A stretch of 33,206 nucleotides of DNA from an uncultured Prevotella sp. (lineage in GTDB: Bacteria; Bacteroidota; Bacteroidia; Bacteroidales; Bacteroidaceae). The notes beneath the pieces are model-generated. The model ran no database searches. It was not told the origin of the DNA and saw only the letters and a list, made by a program, of their open reading frames with translations. This document shows, one piece after another, positions 4,571 to 30,893 of the stretch (its first letter is position 1; every line of letters starts with the position of its first letter). Location of the stretch: positions 1 to 33,206 of the forward strand of contig CAMHEA010000005.1 of the NCBI GenBank assembly GCA_946184025.1, written 5' to 3'. A program made the position numbers and the translations under genes.

Positions 4571-4716
4571 CGTTTTTCATGGGAATGAGGATAGGAGCAA
4601 GGTGTTGGAAGCCAATTCCGGACGAAAAAGCCGACTTGAAATGTTATTTTGTGCCAATATTGCCACGCCATCCCAATAAAATATTGCCTATAAATAAGGT
4701 ACTCACATTCGAAAAA

Positions 4717-4732
4717 GCAAAAACTATTTTGC
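4717..4732. promoter_or_regulatory. Operator-like dyad, first copy
   Basis: GCAAAA-ACTA-TTTTGC is a perfect 6-bp inverted repeat that overlaps the -33 TTTG of the upstream promoter copy. A regulator binding here would compete with polymerase. No regulator can be assigned from the sequence. Confidence 0.35.
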
Positions 4733-4758
4733 ATTTTGCTCATTTAATCGTACCTTTA
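4728..4758 (+). promoter_or_regulatory. Upstream (degenerate) copy of the FKBP operon promoter
   Basis: TTTG at 4728-4731, a 19-bp spacer and TACCTTTA at 4751-4758. The final G of the TAnnTTTG box is replaced by A, so this copy may be weak or act as a decoy site for sigma factor or regulator. Confidence 0.45.
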
Positions 4759-4782
4759 CATAAGGTACTTGCGTTCGAAAAA

Positions 4783-4798
4783 GCAAAAACTATTTTGC
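4783..4798. promoter_or_regulatory. Operator-like dyad, second copy
   Basis: The same GCAAAA-ACTA-TTTTGC dyad, 66 bp downstream of the first, overlaps the -33 TTTG of the intact promoter copy. Confidence 0.35.
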
Positions 4799-4824
4799 AT
4801 TTTGCTCATTTAATCGTACCTTTG
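4794..4824 (+). promoter_or_regulatory. Promoter of the FKBP operon
   Basis: TTTG at 4794-4797, a 19-bp spacer and TACCTTTG at 4817-4824 match the Bacteroidota -33/-7 consensus. The predicted start is near 4831, about 60 nt before the ATG at 4892. Confidence 0.75.
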
Positions 4825-4891: not shown

Positions 4892-5497
4892 ATGGATAAA
4901 GTAAGCTATGCACTCGGTCTGGGTATAGGCCGGCAGCTCGCTCAGATGGGCGCTACGGAGCTCTGTATAGACGATTTTGCACAGGCCATCAAGGATGTCG
5001 TGGCTGGGGCAGAACTACAGTTGAAGGAGGCTGAGGCTCAGGCCATTGTGCAGGATTTCTTCCAGAAGCAGGAAGAAAAGCAGCATGCTGCTGCCGCTGA
5101 GGCTGGTAAGGCTGCGCGTGAGGCTGGTGAGAAGTATCTGGAGGCCAACGGCAAGAAGGAAGGTGTTGTCACCACGGTCAGCGGTCTGCAATATCAGGTG
5201 TTGAAAGAAGGTACGGGCAAGCAACCGAAGGCCACCGACAAAGTGCGTTGCCATTATGAAGGCATGCTCATCGACGGCACGTTGTTCGACAGCAGCATCC
5301 AGCGTGGTGAGCCGGCCGTGTTCGGTCTGAATCAGGTCATTGCCGGATGGACTGAAGGTCTGCAACTGATGAAGGAGGGCGGAAAGTATCGCTTCTTCAT
5401 TCCTTACCAGCTGGGCTACGGAGAGCGTGGTGCCGGTGCAGCCATTCCGCCGTATGCAGCACTGGTGTTCGATGTAGAACTCATCGAAGTGGTATAA
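4892..5497 (+). CDS. FKBP-type peptidyl-prolyl isomerase, cytoplasmic
   Basis: 201 aa, with no signal peptide, so cytoplasmic. Residues 1-105 form the FKBP_N dimerisation segment (MDKVSYALGLGIGRQL), including a charged Ala/Glu-rich helix (KQEEKQHAAAAEAGKAA). Residues about 110-201 are the FKBP domain with the expected pocket residues: HYEG, LFDSS, QVIAGW, LGYG and LVFDVEL. It should catalyse cis-trans isomerisation at Xaa-Pro bonds and act as a folding helper; the architecture is FklB-like. First gene of a three-FKBP operon behind a duplicated promoter, with 56 bp to the next gene. Confidence 0.9.
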   Translation: MDKVSYALGLGIGRQLAQMGATELCIDDFAQAIKDVVAGAELQLKEAEAQAIVQDFFQKQEEKQHAAAAEAGKAAREAGEKYLEANGKKEGVVTTVSGLQYQVLKEGTGKQPKATDKVRCHYEGMLIDGTLFDSSIQRGEPAVFGLNQVIAGWTEGLQLMKEGGKYRFFIPYQLGYGERGAGAAIPPYAALVFDVELIEVV

Positions 5498-5553
5498 TCC
5501 AGGAGACAGAAGAAAGGAAAATAAAGATAAAAACATCCATAAAAGCAAAGAAA

Positions 5554-6459
5554 ATGAAGAAATTATCAATGGTAGCCGTTATGGCTATGGCTGCAATGGC
5601 ACTGGCCTCTTGCAGCAAGTCGGCTCCGAAGGCCAATCTGGAGAGCGACCTTGACTCGCTGAGCTATGCTTTCGGCGTTGAGCAGTCACAAGGTGTGAAG
5701 CCGTTCCTACAGCAGATGGAGATTGATTCCACCTATATGGAACTGTTCGTTCAGGGTATTACCGAAGGTGCCGAGGGTGCCGACGACAACAAGAAGAAGG
5801 CTTACAATGCCGGAATCATGGTGGGTCAGCAGATTATGATGATGCAGCAGAACTATGCTCGTCAGCTTTTCGACGGTGATTCCACGAAGACGCTGTCCAA
5901 GGACAACTTCATTGCTGGTTTCCTTGCAGGTGCAACGGGTAAGGATCAGAAGATGACCATGGAGCAGGCACGCATGGTTGGCCAGCAGGTGGCACAGGCA
6001 CTGCAGATGAAGCAGGCTGAAGTGAAGTTCGGCAAGGAAAAGAAGGCTGCCGATGCATTCATGGCTGCCAACGCCCAGAAGGAAGGAGTGCAGAAGCTCG
6101 GAAAGGGTGTTCAGTATAAAGTGTTGAAGGAAGGCAAGGGCGAAATTCCCACTGCCGATGCCATTGTGAACATCAACTATGAGGGAAAGACCATCGACGG
6201 CAAGACGTTTGACAAGCGCGATGGTGCCAAGATGCCCGTAGGTGGTGTCATTGCAGGCTTCACCGAGGCTCTCACCCACATGCCGGTAGGCTCGAAGTGG
6301 GAAATCTACATCCCCTACAGTGCCGGTTATGGTGCTCAGCAGGTAAGTCAGGATCTCAAGCCCTTCTCTACGCTCATCTTCACCGTTGAACTTCTCGGTA
6401 TTGAAAAGAAACCGGAGCCGCAGGCAGCCCCCAACGTTGCTGCTCCGAAAGTGAAATAA
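5554..6459 (+). CDS. FKBP-type peptidyl-prolyl isomerase lipoprotein
   Basis: 301 aa with a lipoprotein signal peptide ending in LASC (Cys20) followed by SKSAP, so membrane-anchored and facing the periplasm or the surface. An FKBP_N dimerisation region spans about residues 28-170 (DSLSYAFGVEQSQ). The FKBP domain spans about 185-285, with NYEG, TFDKR, GVIAGF, AGYG and LIFTVEL. The usual Trp at the base of the pocket is Phe here (VIAGF instead of VIAGW), which could alter inhibitor or substrate binding. A Pro/Ala-rich tail follows. Second of three adjacent FKBPs; the next gene begins 5 bp after its stop, so they are co-transcribed. Confidence 0.88.
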   Translation: MKKLSMVAVMAMAAMALASCSKSAPKANLESDLDSLSYAFGVEQSQGVKPFLQQMEIDSTYMELFVQGITEGAEGADDNKKKAYNAGIMVGQQIMMMQQNYARQLFDGDSTKTLSKDNFIAGFLAGATGKDQKMTMEQARMVGQQVAQALQMKQAEVKFGKEKKAADAFMAANAQKEGVQKLGKGVQYKVLKEGKGEIPTADAIVNINYEGKTIDGKTFDKRDGAKMPVGGVIAGFTEALTHMPVGSKWEIYIPYSAGYGAQQVSQDLKPFSTLIFTVELLGIEKKPEPQAAPNVAAPKVK

Positions 6460-6464
6460 CAGCT

Positions 6465-7343
6465 ATGAAGAAACTGCTCGTTTTGGCACTCGTCGTTGTG
6501 GCGAGTGCCTCTTTTAGCACCGCAGGTGCCAAGGGAAAGAAGGATAAGAAGAATGCGGCCGCAGCTCCGCAACCCGTGGTACTGGCTACGCCGACGGACT
6601 CGTTGAGCTATGCTGCCGGCATGTCGTTGACCGATGGCCTGCTGCCGTATCTCAAACAGCAGTATGGTGTGGACGAAAGCCAGCTGGCCGATGTCGTCCG
6701 CGGTTTCAAGGAAGCTGCTGCTCACCGCAATGACAGCGTCTTTACAGCCTATGTGGCCGGTCTTCAGGTTGCCGAAATGGTCAAGTCGCGCATGCTTCCT
6801 AACCTGCAAGGCGACTTTGAGGAGGTCAATGCCGATTTGGTGTATGCCGGTTTTGCTGCGTCTTTGGAAAAAGACCACACCGTCTATACCGACTCTGCGG
6901 CTCAGCGTGTCTTCACCGCAGGCCGCGAGGAGCTGGTGCGCAAGAAGAACGAGGCTGTCCGCCTGGAAGGCGAGGCGTTCCTGGCTGAGAACAAAACCAA
7001 GGCCGGGGTGGTAACCTTACCCAGCGGACTCCAGTATAAGGTGCTGAAGCAGGGTGCCGGTCCCCAACCGAAGGCCACGGACAAGGTGAGAGTCGCCTAT
7101 GAGGGCCGTACCCTCGACGGCAACGTGTTCGATGCGACCTCCAAGCATGGCAAAGACAGTGATTCGTTCAGCGTCGGCGGGCTCATCAAAGGATGGACGG
7201 AAGCCCTCCAGTTGATGCCTGTTGGCTCAAAGTGGGAACTTTATATCCCGCAGGAGCTGGCCTATGGCGAGCGCGGTGCGGGTCGGAACATCAAACCCTA
7301 CGCCACTTTGATTTTCACGCTGGAACTCCTCGGAATCGAATAA
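6465..7343 (+). CDS. FKBP-type peptidyl-prolyl isomerase, secreted/periplasmic
   Basis: 292 aa with a cleavable signal peptide (LLVLALVVVASASFSTAGA) and no lipobox Cys, then a Lys-rich stretch (KGKKDKKN). An FKBP_N region (DSLSYAAGMSLTDG) runs from about residue 45 to 175. The FKBP domain, about 190-292, has AYEG, VFDAT, GGLIKGWTEAL, LAYGERGAG and LIFTLELLGIE, so the pocket Trp is kept. It starts 5 bp after the lipoprotein FKBP gene and ends at a strong terminator, making it the last gene of the operon. The three paralogs share the D-S-L-S-Y-A start of the FKBP_N segment (first copy KVSYA), which suggests tandem duplication followed by retargeting. Confidence 0.88.
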   Translation: MKKLLVLALVVVASASFSTAGAKGKKDKKNAAAAPQPVVLATPTDSLSYAAGMSLTDGLLPYLKQQYGVDESQLADVVRGFKEAAAHRNDSVFTAYVAGLQVAEMVKSRMLPNLQGDFEEVNADLVYAGFAASLEKDHTVYTDSAAQRVFTAGREELVRKKNEAVRLEGEAFLAENKTKAGVVTLPSGLQYKVLKQGAGPQPKATDKVRVAYEGRTLDGNVFDATSKHGKDSDSFSVGGLIKGWTEALQLMPVGSKWELYIPQELAYGERGAGRNIKPYATLIFTLELLGIE

Positions 7344-7480: not shown

Positions 7481-7942
7481 ATGGACAAAATAGACAATTT
7501 GGATCGCAAGATCTTGAGCATTCTGTCGAAGAATGCCCGCATTCCTTTCAAGGATGTAGCAGCAGAGTGTGGTGTGTCGCGTGCGGCCATCCACCAGCGT
7601 GTTCAGCACCTTATCGAGGGTGGAGTGATTACCGGTAGCGGCTTCGATGTCAACCCGAAGAGCCTCGGCTACAGCACCTGCACCTACGTCGGACTGAACC
7701 TGGAGCGTGGAAGCATGTATAAGGAAGTGGTGGAACAAGTTTCTGCCATTCCCGAAATCGTGGAATGCCACTTCACGACAGGTCCTTATACCATGCTGGT
7801 GAAGCTCTATGCGCGCGACAACGAACAGCTCATGGACTTGCTCAACAACAAGTTGCAGGGCATCCATGGTGTGACAAGCACCGAAACACTCATCTCTTTG
7901 GAGCAGAGTGTCAAGCGTGAGATTCCCGTTACGGTAGAATAA
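7481..7942 (+). CDS. Lrp/AsnC family transcriptional regulator
   Basis: 153 aa, the usual family length. The N-terminal winged helix-turn-helix is clear (LDRKILSILSKNARIPFKDVAAECGVSRAAIHQRVQ, shown here as two joined parts of the family pattern), followed by the linker GVITGSGFDVNPKSLGY and the C-terminal RAM/AsnC effector-binding domain with VECHFTTGPYTMLVKLY. Family members bind DNA as dimers/octamers and respond to amino acids. Own promoter upstream and a hairpin terminator downstream. The next genes are peptide- and amide-cleaving enzymes, so a role in amino-acid or peptide metabolism is a reasonable inference; targets cannot be read from the sequence. Confidence 0.9.
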   Translation: MDKIDNLDRKILSILSKNARIPFKDVAAECGVSRAAIHQRVQHLIEGGVITGSGFDVNPKSLGYSTCTYVGLNLERGSMYKEVVEQVSAIPEIVECHFTTGPYTMLVKLYARDNEQLMDLLNNKLQGIHGVTSTETLISLEQSVKREIPVTVE

Positions 7943-7989: not shown

Positions 7990-8045
7990 TGTTGCTGCCG
8001 CCCACCGGTGCCGTCGGGGGCGGTCGTATCAAATGGAAGAGAGCC

Positions 8046-9830
8046 ATGAAGAATGACAAATACAGCCTGGCAGCACAGTTAGATGCTATCTATGCGGCGT
8101 TTCCCGAAGGCGGGGAGCGTCCTGTCATCGGTTTGACGGCCAACTACTGGGACGGCGATGCAAGTCTGCGCGACCGCTACTACAATCAGGTGGTCAAGGC
8201 CGGCGGTGTGCCCGTGCTGCTGCCGCCCGTATCCGATGCCGAAGTCATCATCAACACCCTGTCGCAGCTCGACGGACTGCTGCTTTCCGGCGGTGCCGAC
8301 TACAATCCCCTGTGGGCTGGCGAAGAACCGTCGCCCCACCTGCACCATGTCAATGCCACGCGCGACCTGCCCGAACTCCTGCTGACGCGTCTGGCCTACA
8401 ACCGCCAACTGCCCATGCTGGGCATCTGCCGAGGTATTCAGACACTGGCGATGGCACTTGACGGCGAGGTGGAACAAGACATCTATCACCCGAAGGAAGC
8501 CACTGCCCAGGCGGCTATGATACGCCATTCGCAGGATGCTGACCGTTGGGAGCCCACCCACCGCGTTGCCGTTGCGGCCGATACGGTGCTTCATGAGATT
8601 TATGGATGTGACGAACTGCTTGTCAACTCGTTCCACCATCAGGCCGTGCGCAGCCCGGGACCACGCTTCCGCGTTTCCGCCACCTCGCCCGATGGCGTTA
8701 TCGAGGCCATGGAGAGCTGTGAGGAGAAGTCCATGATGGGCGTACAGTGGCATCCCGAATGGCTCGGCGACGATGGATTGCCGCTTTTCCGCTGGCTGGT
8801 GGACCGTGCCCGCGAATACCATGCCGCCAAACATATCCACGACCGCATCCTTACCATCGACACCCATGTGGACACACCGATGTTCTTTCCGCAGGGAATA
8901 GACTTCGGCCGACGCGACCCGCGCATCAAGGTGGACCTCCACAAGCTGTCGGAAGGTCGTCAGGATGCCGTGTTCATGGTAGCCTACATCCCGCAGGCGA
9001 TGGGGAATCAGGAGGCTGGAGAATCCCCTTTTGCCTATGCCAACGACATCTTCGACAAGATCGAATCCATCGTGGCCGCCCACTGCGCCCATCTGGCACT
9101 GGCGCGCACGCCCGCCGCCCTTGTGCAGAACAAGCAGACGGGGCGCAAGAGCATCGTGCTGGGCATCGAAAACGGCCTTGCCCTCGAAGGCAGGCTGGAG
9201 CATCTGCCCCATTTCCGTAAACGCGGCGTAGCCTATATGACCCTTTGCCATAACGGGCATAACGACATTTGCAGTTCTGCCCGGAGCGAGGAGAAGGACA
9301 TGGGTGTGTTCCCCTTCGGCGAGAAAGTCATCCGCGAGATGAACCGGCTGGGCATGATGGTGGACCTGAGCCACGGCAGCGAACAGTCGTTCTATGATGC
9401 CCTGGACATCAGCTGCACGCCCATTGTATGCAGCCATAGTAACAGCAAGGCACTCTGCAACCATCCCCGTAACCTCACCGACGACCAGCTGCGAGCCTTG
9501 GCCGCCCACGGCGGCGTGGCTCATACCACGTTCTATCCCGGATTCCTGCGCACCGACAGCGAAGCCACCATCCGCGACGGCGTGGCTCACCTCGAACACG
9601 CCATCCAAGTGATGGGCATAGACCATGTAGGCATCGGCACTGACTTCGACGGTGACGGTGGCGTGCCTGGTATGAACGACGCCTCGGAAGTCATCAACTT
9701 TACCATTCAGCTCCTGCGCCGCCGCTATTCCGAGGCCGACATCCGACGCATCTGGGGTGGCAACTGGTTGCGCGTGATGCAAGCGGTGCAGGACTATCCA
9801 CAAACCATAGACAGCAAGCAATCAAGATGA
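8046..9830 (+). CDS. Fused class I glutaminase-like (peptidase C26) and membrane-dipeptidase-like (M19) enzyme
   Basis: 594 aa from the ATG at 8046, which has a GGAAGAG site; the track's TTG start at 7992 lies against the terminator and is rejected. Residues about 25-265 are a PuuD/peptidase C26 class I glutamine-amidotransferase fold with LSGGADY, nucleophile Cys128 (LGICRGIQ) and His236/Glu238 (GVQWHPEW). Residues about 267-585 are an M19 renal-dipeptidase domain: metal motif His274-x-Asp276 (DTHVDTP), bridging Glu in GIENGLALEG, VDLSHGS, VCSHSNS and GIGTDFDGDGG. No signal peptide, so cytoplasmic. Expected chemistry is hydrolysis of gamma-glutamyl amide bonds by one half and of dipeptides by the other, which would suit gamma-glutamyl peptides such as glutathione (inference). 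The stop overlaps the next start by ATGA, so translation is coupled. Confidence 0.87.
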   Translation: MKNDKYSLAAQLDAIYAAFPEGGERPVIGLTANYWDGDASLRDRYYNQVVKAGGVPVLLPPVSDAEVIINTLSQLDGLLLSGGADYNPLWAGEEPSPHLHHVNATRDLPELLLTRLAYNRQLPMLGICRGIQTLAMALDGEVEQDIYHPKEATAQAAMIRHSQDADRWEPTHRVAVAADTVLHEIYGCDELLVNSFHHQAVRSPGPRFRVSATSPDGVIEAMESCEEKSMMGVQWHPEWLGDDGLPLFRWLVDRAREYHAAKHIHDRILTIDTHVDTPMFFPQGIDFGRRDPRIKVDLHKLSEGRQDAVFMVAYIPQAMGNQEAGESPFAYANDIFDKIESIVAAHCAHLALARTPAALVQNKQTGRKSIVLGIENGLALEGRLEHLPHFRKRGVAYMTLCHNGHNDICSSARSEEKDMGVFPFGEKVIREMNRLGMMVDLSHGSEQSFYDALDISCTPIVCSHSNSKALCNHPRNLTDDQLRALAAHGGVAHTTFYPGFLRTDSEATIRDGVAHLEHAIQVMGIDHVGIGTDFDGDGGVPGMNDASEVINFTIQLLRRRYSEADIRRIWGGNWLRVMQAVQDYPQTIDSKQSR

Positions 9831-10858
9831 TGAAGAGAAAGACCCTTTCCATGGCTGTTGCCGCAGCCATGGTCCTGATGATGATACCCGTTTCGTGCAA
9901 GAACAAGCGCGTCGGAGTCTCCGACGGCAACAATGGCGACACGGCTGTCACCGTCGTACAATTCAATGCCGACTCGGCCTATGCCTTCTGCGAGGCGCAG
10001 TGTGCCTTCGGACCGCGTACGATGAACTCCGAGGCCCACGAGAAGTGCAAGGAATGGATCATGGAAGCCTTCCGCCGCTACGGCTGTGAGGTCAAGACAC
10101 AACAGGCCGACCTTCAGGGCTACGACGGAACCATCCTGAAAGCCACCAATATCATGGCCAGCTACCATCCCGAAGCCTCCACCCGCATCCTTCTTTGCGC
10201 CCACTGGGACAGCCGTCCGTGGGCCGACAACGACCCTGATGAGGCCAACCGCAAGAAGCCTGTCATGGCAGCCAACGACGGAGCCAGCGGAGTGGCGGTC
10301 ATGCTGGAGGTGGCACGCGTCCTGGCCGACCATGCTGCCACCCACCCCGGCGATACGTTGCAGCTGGGAGTAGACTTCGTCTGTTTCGATGCCGAAGACT
10401 GGGGCATACCCCAGTGGGCCGACAGCCACGCGGACACGGGCGAAACCTGGGCACTGGGGGCGCAGTTCTTTGCTGCCCATCTGCCTCAGGGCTATGAGGC
10501 GCGCTATGGAATCCTGCTCGATATGGTCGGCGGTGAAGGCGCGAAGTTCTATCGCGAAGGCATGTCTGTGCGCTATGCCAATGCCATTGTTGGCAAAGTG
10601 TGGGCAGCGGCGAAGGTTGCCGGCTACGGAAGCCTGTTTCCCGACGAGGAGGGTGGTGCTGTCACGGACGACCATCTGCCCCTGAACGAAGTGGCAGGCA
10701 TCCCCACCATCGACATCATTCCTTTCTATCCGGACTGTCAGCAAAGCTCGTTCGGCCCTACTTGGCACACGGTCAACGACGACATGACGCACATCGACCG
10801 CAACACCTTGCAGGCTGTGGGGCAGACCCTCCTTCAGGTGTTGTTCACGGAGGAATAG
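9827..10858 (+). CDS. M28-family lipoprotein, glutaminyl-peptide cyclotransferase-like
   Basis: 343 aa with a lipoprotein signal ending in IPVSC (Cys24; an alternative start one codon later is possible). The zinc-peptidase M28 fold shows the expected metal and catalytic motifs in order: LLCAHWDSRPW, ANDGASGVAVMLE, FDAEDWG, LDMVGGEG, and a C-terminal TWHTVNDDMTHID. The AHWDSRPWAD form and overall length resemble bacterial glutaminyl cyclases, which convert N-terminal Gln to pyroglutamate, more than broad aminopeptidases; sequence alone does not settle this. It should sit on the outer face of the inner membrane or in the outer membrane. Overlaps the upstream glutaminase-dipeptidase gene by 4 bp. 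A 22-bp-unit repeat element begins 52 bp after its stop. Confidence 0.85.
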   Translation: MMKRKTLSMAVAAAMVLMMIPVSCKNKRVGVSDGNNGDTAVTVVQFNADSAYAFCEAQCAFGPRTMNSEAHEKCKEWIMEAFRRYGCEVKTQQADLQGYDGTILKATNIMASYHPEASTRILLCAHWDSRPWADNDPDEANRKKPVMAANDGASGVAVMLEVARVLADHAATHPGDTLQLGVDFVCFDAEDWGIPQWADSHADTGETWALGAQFFAAHLPQGYEARYGILLDMVGGEGAKFYREGMSVRYANAIVGKVWAAAKVAGYGSLFPDEEGGAVTDDHLPLNEVAGIPTIDIIPFYPDCQQSSFGPTWHTVNDDMTHIDRNTLQAVGQTLLQVLFTEE

Positions 10859-10910: not shown

Positions 10911-10998
10911 CAATAAAGCCTTTATTACTTTTCAATATAGGCTTTATTGCTTTTTAATATAGGGTATATTACGATGTAATATAGGCTCTATTACTTCA
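10911..10998 (+). repeat. Four-unit 22-bp intergenic element, copy A
   Basis: Four tandem units of exactly 22 bp (10911, 10933, 10955, 10977). Each carries the core YAATAWAGSSTNTATTR, an imperfect dyad. It lies between the M28 gene and miaB. Units share the core but differ in the last five bases. The same structure occurs at 20140-20227 and 30806-30893. There are no flanking direct repeats and no coding capacity. Unknown element; see findings. Confidence 0.9.
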
Positions 10999-19079: not shown

Positions 19080-20093
19080 ATGTCCACGAAAGCAAGAAAA
19101 ATATATTATAACCTCCATAGCGGCAAAAACTCCAAATTAGCCTATTTTGCCCGTTGCTACCTGCGTCGTTGCATGCCCTCGCGCCTCCTGCAAAGCCGCA
19201 GGCAAAGCCTTCTTGACGAAGTGCAGCAACGCGCCGACAAGGACTACATTCTGCAACGCGTGGACTATTACTGCCGTCTGAACGAAGCCGGAGAACTGTC
19301 AGCCGAAGATCAGGTCGACTTCCTGCGCCAGTCCATGCCTGTCGGAAAGCAGCCGGTCTTGCACCCCAAGGTCTACTATTTTGACTCCATGCAGTATGCC
19401 CGGTGGTTCCCTCCGACGTCACGGTGGATTCTTCTACCCGGCGACATCACCCATGTGCCCCAGCTACCCTCCATCGTCAAGAGCCGCCCGTTGGGCGGTG
19501 ACAACCACCGTTCCGTATTACTCAATCTCGACAAAGTCCGACACTTCACCTTTGTGAACGACCGAAAGCCCTTTACGGAAAAGAAAGACCAAGCCATCTT
19601 CCGCGGACTCATCGCACAGGTGAGGGACGGCGGGCTGAAGACCAACCGCTATGACTTCATGGAAAAGTTCTTCGGCCATCCCATGGTGGATGCAGGTGTC
19701 ATCGACAAGCGGTTTCCCGAGTGGCTCACGGAGAAAATCACCATAGCCGAACACCTGGACTACAAGTTTGTCATGGCCCTCGAGGGCAACGACGTGGCCT
19801 CCAACCTCAAGTGGATCATGTCGTCCAACTCTGTTGCCGTCATGCCGCCGCCCACCTGCGAAACCTGGTTCATGGAGGGAACCCTCATTCCCGACTACCA
19901 CTACATAGCCATCAAGCCCGACTACTCCGACCTGGAGTCGCGCCTGCAATACTTCATCGACCATCCCGACGAGGCACAAGCCATCATTGACCATGCCCAC
20001 GACTATGTTGCACAGTTCCGCAACGCACGGCGAGAACTCCTCATTTCCCTGCTTGTACTCGACAGATACTTCCGCGCTACGGCCTCCCAATAG
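19080..20093 (+). CDS. GT90-like (CAP10/LpsA-type) glycosyltransferase
   Basis: 337 aa starting with a basic N-terminus (STKARKIYYNLHSGKNSK). The C-terminal two thirds match the CAP10/GT90 pattern: AIFRGLIAQ, NRYDFMEKFF, LTEKITIAEHLDYKFVMALEGND, SNLKWIMSSNSVAVMPPP, and an acidic tail YIAIKPDYSDLESRLQYF. In bacteria this family includes LPS core glycosyltransferases such as LpsA; in eukaryotes, protein O-glucosyltransferases and xylosyltransferases. The setting at the end of a lipid A/LPS cluster favours a core or surface-glycan role. It is followed by repeat copy B, and no terminator hairpin is obvious. Confidence 0.8.
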   Translation: MSTKARKIYYNLHSGKNSKLAYFARCYLRRCMPSRLLQSRRQSLLDEVQQRADKDYILQRVDYYCRLNEAGELSAEDQVDFLRQSMPVGKQPVLHPKVYYFDSMQYARWFPPTSRWILLPGDITHVPQLPSIVKSRPLGGDNHRSVLLNLDKVRHFTFVNDRKPFTEKKDQAIFRGLIAQVRDGGLKTNRYDFMEKFFGHPMVDAGVIDKRFPEWLTEKITIAEHLDYKFVMALEGNDVASNLKWIMSSNSVAVMPPPTCETWFMEGTLIPDYHYIAIKPDYSDLESRLQYFIDHPDEAQAIIDHAHDYVAQFRNARRELLISLLVLDRYFRATASQ

Positions 20094-20139: not shown

Positions 20140-20227
20140 TAATATAGGCTTTATTACTTGGCAATATAGCCCATATTGCTCGGTAATATAGCCTATTTTG
20201 CTCTGTAATAAAGGGTATATTACTAAC
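20140..20227 (+). repeat. Four-unit 22-bp intergenic element, copy B
   Basis: Units begin at 20140, 20162, 20184 and 20206, each exactly 22 bp, with the same dyad core as copies A and C. It begins 46 bp after the GT90 stop codon and lies more than 200 bp upstream of the SusC promoter. No homology to flanking sequence is seen. Confidence 0.9.
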
Positions 20228-20375: not shown

Positions 20376-20399
20376 GTGAGGTGAAAAGTGAGGTGAAAA
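20376..20399 (+). repeat. Tandem 12-bp direct repeat upstream of the SusC promoter
   Basis: Two adjacent perfect copies of GTGAGGTGAAAA, about 50 bp upstream of the -7 box. The spacing suits a direct-repeat activator site; PUL regulators of the hybrid two-component or SusR type bind direct repeats upstream of susC genes. No such regulator gene is seen in the window, so this is inference. Confidence 0.5.
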
Positions 20400-20446
20400 G
20401 TCTTTATGAAATCCTTTGCAAGGAAGGAGCCGATGTGGAAAAACCA

Positions 20447-28304: not shown

Positions 28305-28377
28305 GCGGAAATAGCTCAGTTGGTAGAGCACAACCTTGCCAAGGTTGGGGTCGCGGGTCCGAGTCCCGTTTTCCGCT
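28305..28377 (+). tRNA. tRNA-Gly (anticodon GCC)
   Basis: 73 nt. The acceptor stem GCGGAAA/TTTCCGC is perfect, with discriminator T. D-arm AGCTCAGTTGGTAGAGC is standard. The anticodon arm is CAACC-TTGCCAA-GGTTG, giving anticodon GCC. The T-stem GCGGG/CCCGT encloses the loop TCCGAGT, in which position 55 is C rather than the usual T. No CCA is encoded. Decodes GGC and GGU. Confidence 0.95.
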
Positions 28378-28435: not shown

Positions 28436-28519
28436 GCCGCAATGGTGGAATTGGTAGACACGAGGGACTTAAAATCCCTTGGCCGTAAGGCTGTGCGGGT
28501 TCGAGTCCCGCTCGCGGCA
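28436..28519 (+). tRNA. tRNA-Leu (anticodon TAA)
   Basis: 84 nt with a long variable arm (TTGGCCGTAAGGCTGT region), typical of tRNA-Leu. Anticodon loop CTTAAAA gives TAA, read as UAA. The T-loop TTCGAGT is normal. In the acceptor stem GCCGCAA pairs with TCGCGGC, so the sixth pair is an A-C mismatch. Discriminator A is as expected for Leu; no CCA is encoded. It lies 58 bp after tRNA-Gly and is probably co-transcribed. It would be a MiaB substrate (UNN decoder), and miaB is in this window. Confidence 0.93.
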
Positions 28520-29724: not shown

Positions 29725-30705
29725 ATGAAACATCTACTCATCCTACTTTCCCTTTTTGTCCTACCCGCCTCAGCCCAGAGCCGGCACGAGGAAATCAAGA
29801 CAAGGGTGGACAGTGTGTTGCAGAAAAGATACCGGCGGGTTACCTACGACACCGCCTACATCATGCGTCCGAAGGAGAAACTGACGTTGCGTGTACGGAC
29901 AAACCTCAGCGGAAACTACCTTCACGGACGGGGAACCGTAGACGGGCAGACAATCAAGGGCGACCTGAAGACGGCTCTCCGGGGTACCATCAACTTCGGA
30001 GCCAGCTACATGGGCGTGGCCGCAGCCCTCTCCCTCAATCCAGGCAGCCTGAGCGGACGCAACAAGGACTATGAACTGAACCTCTCGGCCAGCAGCAACC
30101 GCTATTGTGTGGATGCCAGCTATCAGCTCTCCAAAACCCTGTCGGGCACCATGACCCACGGAGATGTTGTCAGCGACGTGGAGAAAGGGCTTGTGGATAT
30201 GCAGATGTTCAACCTTACAGCCTATTATTTCTTCAACCACCGCCACTTTTCCTATCCTGCCGCCTTCACGCAGACCTATCTGCAGAAACGCTCGGCTGGC
30301 TCCTGGCTGGCAGGATTTGCCTATCAGGGTGGTCGTTTCAAGACCACCGACGAGGCGTCTTCCGACGAGCCCCATGGGCGGATCTATGTGGGCTATTTCG
30401 GCATTGGCGGCGGCTACGGCTATCATCTCGTTCTCAGCGACAAATGGCTGTTCCACCTTTCTTCCCTTCCCATGCTGATTGTCTTCAACCGCAACAACAT
30501 GACCGTAGACGGAATGCGCCGCGATGCACCCACGCGCTTCCCTGAAATGATTCTCAACGGACGTTTCGCCGTCGTCCGCCGCTTGTCGGCTCGCAGCTTT
30601 GCCGGATTCACCGTCAAAGGTTCCACATCGTTTCTGGAAGGCAGCAATGGCAATGTCAGGTATCATCGGTGGCAGGGACGCATCTTTCTGGGATTCCGCC
30701 TGTAA
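29725..30705 (+). CDS. DUF4421-like outer membrane protein
   Basis: 326 aa with signal peptide LLILLSLFVLPASAQS. The start of the mature protein (VTYDTAYIMRPKEKLTLRVRTNLSG) is characteristic of the DUF4421 family of Bacteroidota. Alternating hydrophobic strands with aromatic girdles (NLTAYYFFNHRHFSYPAAFTQ, GRIYVGYFGIGGGYGYHLV) and a C-terminal Phe-containing strand (WQGRIFLGFRL) suggest a beta-barrel of about 12 strands. Function is unknown. It stands 114 bp after the preceding gene, with AAAG before the ATG, and has a likely terminator just after its stop. Confidence 0.7.
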   Translation: MKHLLILLSLFVLPASAQSRHEEIKTRVDSVLQKRYRRVTYDTAYIMRPKEKLTLRVRTNLSGNYLHGRGTVDGQTIKGDLKTALRGTINFGASYMGVAAALSLNPGSLSGRNKDYELNLSASSNRYCVDASYQLSKTLSGTMTHGDVVSDVEKGLVDMQMFNLTAYYFFNHRHFSYPAAFTQTYLQKRSAGSWLAGFAYQGGRFKTTDEASSDEPHGRIYVGYFGIGGGYGYHLVLSDKWLFHLSSLPMLIVFNRNNMTVDGMRRDAPTRFPEMILNGRFAVVRRLSARSFAGFTVKGSTSFLEGSNGNVRYHRWQGRIFLGFRL

Positions 30706-30805: not shown

Positions 30806-30893
30806 CAATAAAGCCTATATTGCTCAGTAATATAGGCTGTTTTACCGAGTAATATAGGCTGTCTGATGAAGTAATAAAGGGTATATTGCTTGC
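30806..30893 (+). repeat. Four-unit 22-bp intergenic element, copy C
   Basis: Units begin at 30806, 30828, 30850 and 30872, each exactly 22 bp, with the same core as copies A and B; the third unit is eroded in its right half (GTCTGATG). It lies between two convergent genes, about 100 bp from one stop and 50 bp from the other. A perfect TTCGGCCGAA palindrome sits directly to its left (near 30793-30802). Confidence 0.9.

Follow-up and report, generated by a model that had tools for sequence, protein, structure and literature searches.

Four 17-bp palindromes spaced 22 bp apart form a small DNA element that occurs in about 80 copies in the genome of an uncultured Prevotella sp. (GenBank assembly GCA_946184025.1), three of which lie within the 33,206-bp stretch analyzed here (contig CAMHEA010000005.1, positions 1 to 33,206, hereafter the window). 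Related Prevotella species carry the same design spelled in a different, species-specific sequence, and copies lie near gene ends and, apart from one duplicated pair, at least about 5 kb apart, thereby suggesting a selected landing platform for an unknown DNA-binding protein.

Anatomy and copy number of the palindrome arrays

The initial annotation had described three dispersed 88-bp blocks, each made of four head-to-tail 22-bp units. We confirmed the presence and position of these blocks, with unit starts at 10911/10933/10955/10977, 20140/20162/20184/20206 and 30806/30828/30850/30872. However, each unit is an imperfect 17-bp palindrome (YAATAWAGSSTNTATTR) separated from the next by a 5-bp spacer, a symmetry which had been overlooked, as had the degeneration of the third unit in the third block. 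The four palindromic cores span 83 bp, and the last 5 bp of each 88-bp block are flank. The arrays and the neighboring genes considered below are as follows:

10911..10993 (no strand assigned), array 1, four 17-bp palindromes at 22-bp period, 52 bp after the stop of an M28-peptidase gene and 132 bp before miaB
20140..20222 (no strand assigned), array 2, four 17-bp palindromes at 22-bp period, 46 bp after the stop of a gene ending at 20093 and about 440 bp before the susC-like gene 20663
30806..30888 (no strand assigned), array 3, four units, the third one degenerate (TAATATAGGCTGTCTGA), between convergent genes ending at 30705 (+) and 30943 (-)
7481..7942 (+), Lrp/AsnC-family gene
9827..10858 (+), M28-type peptidase gene directly upstream of array 1

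Within the window, the unit was found 27 times at up to 3 mismatches, compared to 1.8 expected in shuffled sequences. In the whole genome (1.99 Mb, 178 contigs), which is a 68%-complete MAG, a two-unit pattern gave 201 forward and 207 reverse hits and none in the reversed control. We extracted 81 arrays, which account for 192 of 201 and 197 of 207 of these hits. Of these, 77 have exactly four in-phase units, one has four with a 1-bp deletion, one has four with a decayed fourth unit and two have three, whereas none is longer. No isolated unit was found in the 259 kb examined.

Additional features were noted in the window. An Rfam search yielded only two tRNA genes (28305-28377 and 28436-28519). 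A 66-bp direct repeat in 2.1 copies (92% matches) is present at 4687-4823, just upstream of the gene at 4892, and the region 4892-7343 contains three consecutive genes which, judging from their translations, read like FKBP-type peptidyl-prolyl isomerases, apparently a tandem paralogue cluster. One ORF (7992-9830) appears to fuse a glutamine-amidotransferase/peptidase C26-like half to a membrane-dipeptidase-like half, and the same length range matches in several relatives. Finally, two copies of GTGAGGTGAAAA lie shortly after array 2 (20376-20401).

Unit number and phase are maintained without a visible trace of duplication or recent copying

To determine how the arrays evolve, we compared their sequence identities to those of arrays drawn independently from the column frequencies. 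Whole-array identities (median 0.70, maximum 0.83) equal those of the independent draws (0.69, 0.83), and units of one array are no more alike than units of different arrays (0.780 vs 0.775), whereas flanks are essentially unrelated. There is therefore no visible trace of tandem duplication or of recent copying in this genome, and yet number and phase are kept, with only one indel in 81 arrays despite saturated sequence divergence. From these results we infer purifying selection on four sites in register. These findings support the view of the initial annotation that the constant number reflects a functional unit rather than slippage.

Unit number is also typically four in G085, a related Prevotella genome (2.7 Mb, two contigs, 99% complete) using another word. 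There, a four-unit pattern gave 108 hits with 0 in the control and only one clear five-unit array. In an 800-kb sample, 38 of 51 chains have four units, and 142 of 146 steps are exactly 22 bp. A search for isolated units in G085 gave 7, compared to 9 in shuffled sequence.

Half-sites do not covary

We next asked whether the palindromes behave as hairpins. Complementarity between the two halves of a unit, between neighboring half-units, between whole neighbors and in the 1-4/2-3 register is at or below shuffled expectation in the home genome (z from -1.3 to -3.2) and clearly below it in G085 (z from -2.3 to -5.4). The two halves of a unit gave z of -1.5 and -4.1, and adjacent halves -2.2 and -5.4, in the home genome and G085, respectively. 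Half-sites thus vary independently, or even anti-covary, as expected for duplex recognition by a dimer and not for RNA or single-strand folding.

Arrays are located near gene 3′ ends and avoid each other

Using our own gene calls, obtained with a hexamer-scored caller, we observed that 75 arrays in the home genome lie a median 72 bp from the 3′ end of a gene and 204 bp from a 5′ end. Gaps between convergent genes are over-represented (24 of 75, against 2 of 38 array-free gaps; Fisher p=0.0009), and in tandem gaps 32 of 40 arrays are nearer to the end of the upstream gene. In G085, 14 of 44 array gaps are convergent against 26 of 213 (p=0.0025), 19 of 21 tandem-gap arrays are nearer to the upstream end, and one of 49 overlaps a called gene. 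About 15-20% of arrays, however, lie between divergent genes. No terminal or flanking inverted repeats were found, and no enrichment for target-site duplications was observed for k = 4-9 at any offset in three genomes.

The spacing of about 9-11 kb indicated in the initial annotation holds for the window only; the genome-wide mean is about 25 kb with a hard minimum of about 5 kb. In the home genome no gap is below 5 kb, where 11.4 are expected. On the G085 chromosome, 106 mapped arrays (mean gap 25 kb) have two gaps below 7 kb where 25 are expected. The smallest of these (4.7 kb; positions 2166278 and 2171002) joins two near-identical copies, apparently a local segmental duplication, and is the only pair below 6.8 kb on that chromosome. 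In a third genome, G028, the smallest gap observed is 6.1 kb, and in a fourth, G093, no gap is below 6.5 kb (8.8 expected), the spacing being rather regular on two contigs (CV 0.28 and 0.39). With the exception of the duplicated pair, minimum gaps in the four genomes are 5.2, 6.1, 6.8 and 6.9 kb. Restricting random placement to transcription-unit-end gaps did not remove the effect (0 vs 7.4 below 5 kb, P=0.0002). Outside the last tenth of the chromosome, positions in G085 are near-evenly distributed.

One geometry is spelled in many words across the genus

A sequence model of the arrays finds relatives in 84 of 398 species of the genus. In other species the 22-bp frame is kept while the word changes, for example to TAAAATAGGCTATTTTA (G028, G295 and G270), TAATATGGGCCATATTA (G093), TAATATATGATATATTA (G224, G284, G196 and G349) and CAAWTTSGSCSAAWTTG (G085). 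Other rumen/gut Prevotella carry 4-9 unit tandem palindromes at period 22 in wholly different words (e.g. CTGGAGCATTGCTCTGT, CAACGGGGCCGCCGTTG, TTACAGACTATTTGTAA; loci L206:229, L205:3225, L241:1080, L257:8105 and L225:9053). In addition, a scan ignoring sequence and asking only for three or more tandem 17-bp palindromes found 19 arrays at period 22 in 80 named Prevotella/Segatella loci, four each at periods 18 and 21, none at the other ten periods between 19 and 30, and none in shuffled DNA. Outside the genus, hits of a frame pattern are near control level, except possibly in one genus. As the sequence is species-specific while the geometry is shared, the element is the architecture rather than the motif. 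Unit number is likewise species-typical, namely four in the home genome and in G085, but mostly three in G028 and G093 (14 of 25 in G093, range 3-8).

The Segatella copri complex uses period 21 and RTTCA-N7-TGAAY, with centres that differ by species. Its arrays (loci L267, L270, L272 and L278) have conserved outer ends AAATCTCCG ... CGGAGATTT, a possible short terminal inverted repeat not seen in the home genome. Orthologues of the M28 peptidase gene in three S. copri-complex species and two other Prevotella also have a four- or three-unit tandem-palindrome array just downstream, spelled in other words. At this site, the three S. copri-complex species have a four-unit array, and in one of them three of the four centres have changed while frame, number and position stayed. 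In two further loci (L190 and L192), tandem GGCCTGCGGCC/GAAAGGTTCAGAAGGGTTAAGAG repeats occupy the same intergenic place after the M28 gene. A clean empty site for array 1 was not obtained, because the gene after M28 differs in the relatives checked.

In contrast to the home genome, dozens of arrays in G093 share the exact word and near-identical spacers, and several show locally duplicated units. Many abut a second dispersed GC-rich repeat (CCCACCCCCNNCCCCTCCCCAAGGGAGGGG; loci L432, L439-L450 and L402-L431), followed in several cases by a CATAAG/CTTATAAG repeat, giving mosaic intergenic elements, and a similar GC-rich stretch follows M28 in L206. This looks like a recent spread. Moreover, array positions are shared between species (comparisons with G028 and G093) only at roughly chance level, although orthology counts are small and the chance levels are rough estimates, with a few clear shared sites (for example L416 and L006, both flanking genes). 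Families thus arise, spread and turn over, and in some species settle into a constrained old state.

A tentative model of a cooperative protein-binding platform

Taken together, these properties fit a model in which each array is a landing platform on double-stranded DNA, with four dimers of one unidentified sequence-specific protein binding four pseudo-palindromic sites two helical turns apart, hence on one face of the helix, and cooperating as one complex. As the arrays sit at the ends of transcription units and keep several kb apart, their most likely role would be architectural, namely an insulator or domain-boundary-type element, or a DNA anchor, between neighboring transcription units. 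Whereas number, phase, placement and spacing were directly observed, protein binding, cooperativity and insulation are inferred, the architectural function from placement only, and we consider this reading tentative (probability of roughly 0.48). The chance-level sharing of positions between species is unlike a conserved structural landmark, and the variable, near-identical arrays of G093 look like recent spread rather than long-kept function. In the home genome, among others, the families appear to be old and kept by purifying selection.

We tested one candidate protein family with suitable symmetry, Lrp/AsnC, since octamers of four dimers, proposed for Lrp/AsnC or RemA to wrap DNA (PMC8481266), would explain four sites in phase, and one such gene lies in the window (7481-7942). 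Both conserved Prevotella orthologues, however, keep essentially invariant recognition helices (VSRAAIHQR and VSGAAIHQR) across 18 species with unrelated words, indicating that they do not set the word, and they were rejected as the binding factor.

Alternative explanations

The strongest alternative, although unlikely on present evidence, is a dispersing, non-autonomous repeat, selfish or domesticated, inserted by a transposition machinery with kb-scale target immunity, in which a transposase bound to the four 22-bp sites keeps new copies away, as Mu and Tn7 end sites do, and gene-end placement reflects purifying selection on insertions. The near-identical arrays at dozens of loci in G093, the turnover of positions and the species-specific families are in line with this view. 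Furthermore, the exclusion distance (5.2-6.9 kb) is close to Mu cis-immunity in E. coli (sharp rise about 5 kb, bulk about 7 kb; PMC7350765), and the Tn7 right end has four 22-bp TnsB sites (PMC11406308). On the other hand, we found no target-site duplication, no terminal or flanking inverted repeats, no element body and no excess of near-identical copies in the home genome, where number and phase are preserved in saturated copies. No Y1 transposase, the only type searched for, was found near arrays, and Tn7/Mu sites, in contrast to those described here, are probably not palindromes.

The remaining alternatives appear very unlikely. Transcribed hairpins acting as a bidirectional terminator or 3′-end stabilizer, as proposed for some REPs, would agree with placement just after genes and between convergent genes, and one inter-unit hairpin with a T-rich tail is called terminator-like, but this reading is largely refuted by the pairing statistics in two species. 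In addition, a separate ordinary terminator precedes the array in S. copri, and 22-bp phasing across spacers has no role in hairpins. Tandem palindromes in phase also look like cooperative operators, which could belong to one large regulon of about 80-110 arrays, yet they sit about 200 bp from gene starts, avoid one another over 5 kb and are only at chance level next to the same genes in related species. Species-specific dialects and gene-end placement resemble the Neisseria DUS (PMC3630211), but DUS/USS occur as hundreds to thousands of single sites, whereas here there are about 80-110 arrays without single units in the sequence examined, and a fixed four-unit block is not expected from point-wise drive. 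An ordinary minisatellite expanded by slippage, for which the tandem arrangement and the locally duplicated units of some G093 arrays could speak, is refuted for the home genome by the constant number and the lack of within-array similarity.

Comparison with known repeats and chromosomal protein sites

The initial annotation had excluded a CRISPR and a known IS end and had not recognized the element as REP/BIME, which holds on the features tested. Only 5-bp spacers are present, instead of the unique spacers of similar length to the repeats found in CRISPR. Similar to REP/BIME elements and RAYT (TnpA-REP) systems, the arrays are extragenic, palindromic, present in about 100 or more copies per genome in species-specific families, and often near gene ends. 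However, the outer flanks are symmetric AAG/CTT without the GTAG or CGTC tag (PMC3733652), stem changes do not compensate each other, and the fixed in-phase four-unit blocks exclude each other over about 5 kb. Moreover, no Y1_Tnp was found in the incomplete home genome, in G270 or in G805, and none of 15 Y1_Tnp loci elsewhere has an array in the flanks examined (up to 1.5 kb).

The BrickBuilt MITE of Porphyromonas gingivalis (PMC4596501) is likewise an intergenic, spacer-less tandem repeat of similar unit length in Bacteroidales, but consists of a 23-nt repeat in 1 to 22.8 copies inside a MITE with leader, tail and IS5-type inverted ends at 19 loci, compared to 22-bp palindromes in four units at 81 loci without such ends. 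A 22-nt tandem repeat reported in P. gingivalis W83 is mentioned in the same study. Sets of chromosome-wide protein sites such as Noc/NBS, SlmA/SBS and MatP/matS also comprise tens to about 100 dispersed palindromic sites per chromosome, although as single sites rather than arrays of four with species-specific words. A prophage origin was not supported, as the exact words of three species are absent from IMG/VR contigs.

Implications

Dispersed intergenic palindromic repeats are common, but a repeat that is counted (four), kept in helical phase, all-or-none, spelled differently in each species and self-avoiding over kilobases does not fit any repeat class we could test. A more far-reaching possibility, which remains unlikely but is not excluded, is that Prevotella chromosomes carry a previously undescribed chromosome-organizing system. 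In this view, a protein with fast-evolving DNA specificity loads as a fixed multimer (four dimers here) on about 100 arrays per chromosome, placed at transcription-unit ends and spaced by a mechanism that excludes a second array within about 5-7 kb, and the whole set of sites is rewritten in step with the protein as species diverge. The arrays would give an entry point to chromosome organization, or to an unknown transposition machinery, in a dominant gut genus in which we found no described system of this kind in the open-licence literature searched, and the species-specific word on a constant geometry makes the unknown partner findable by co-evolution.
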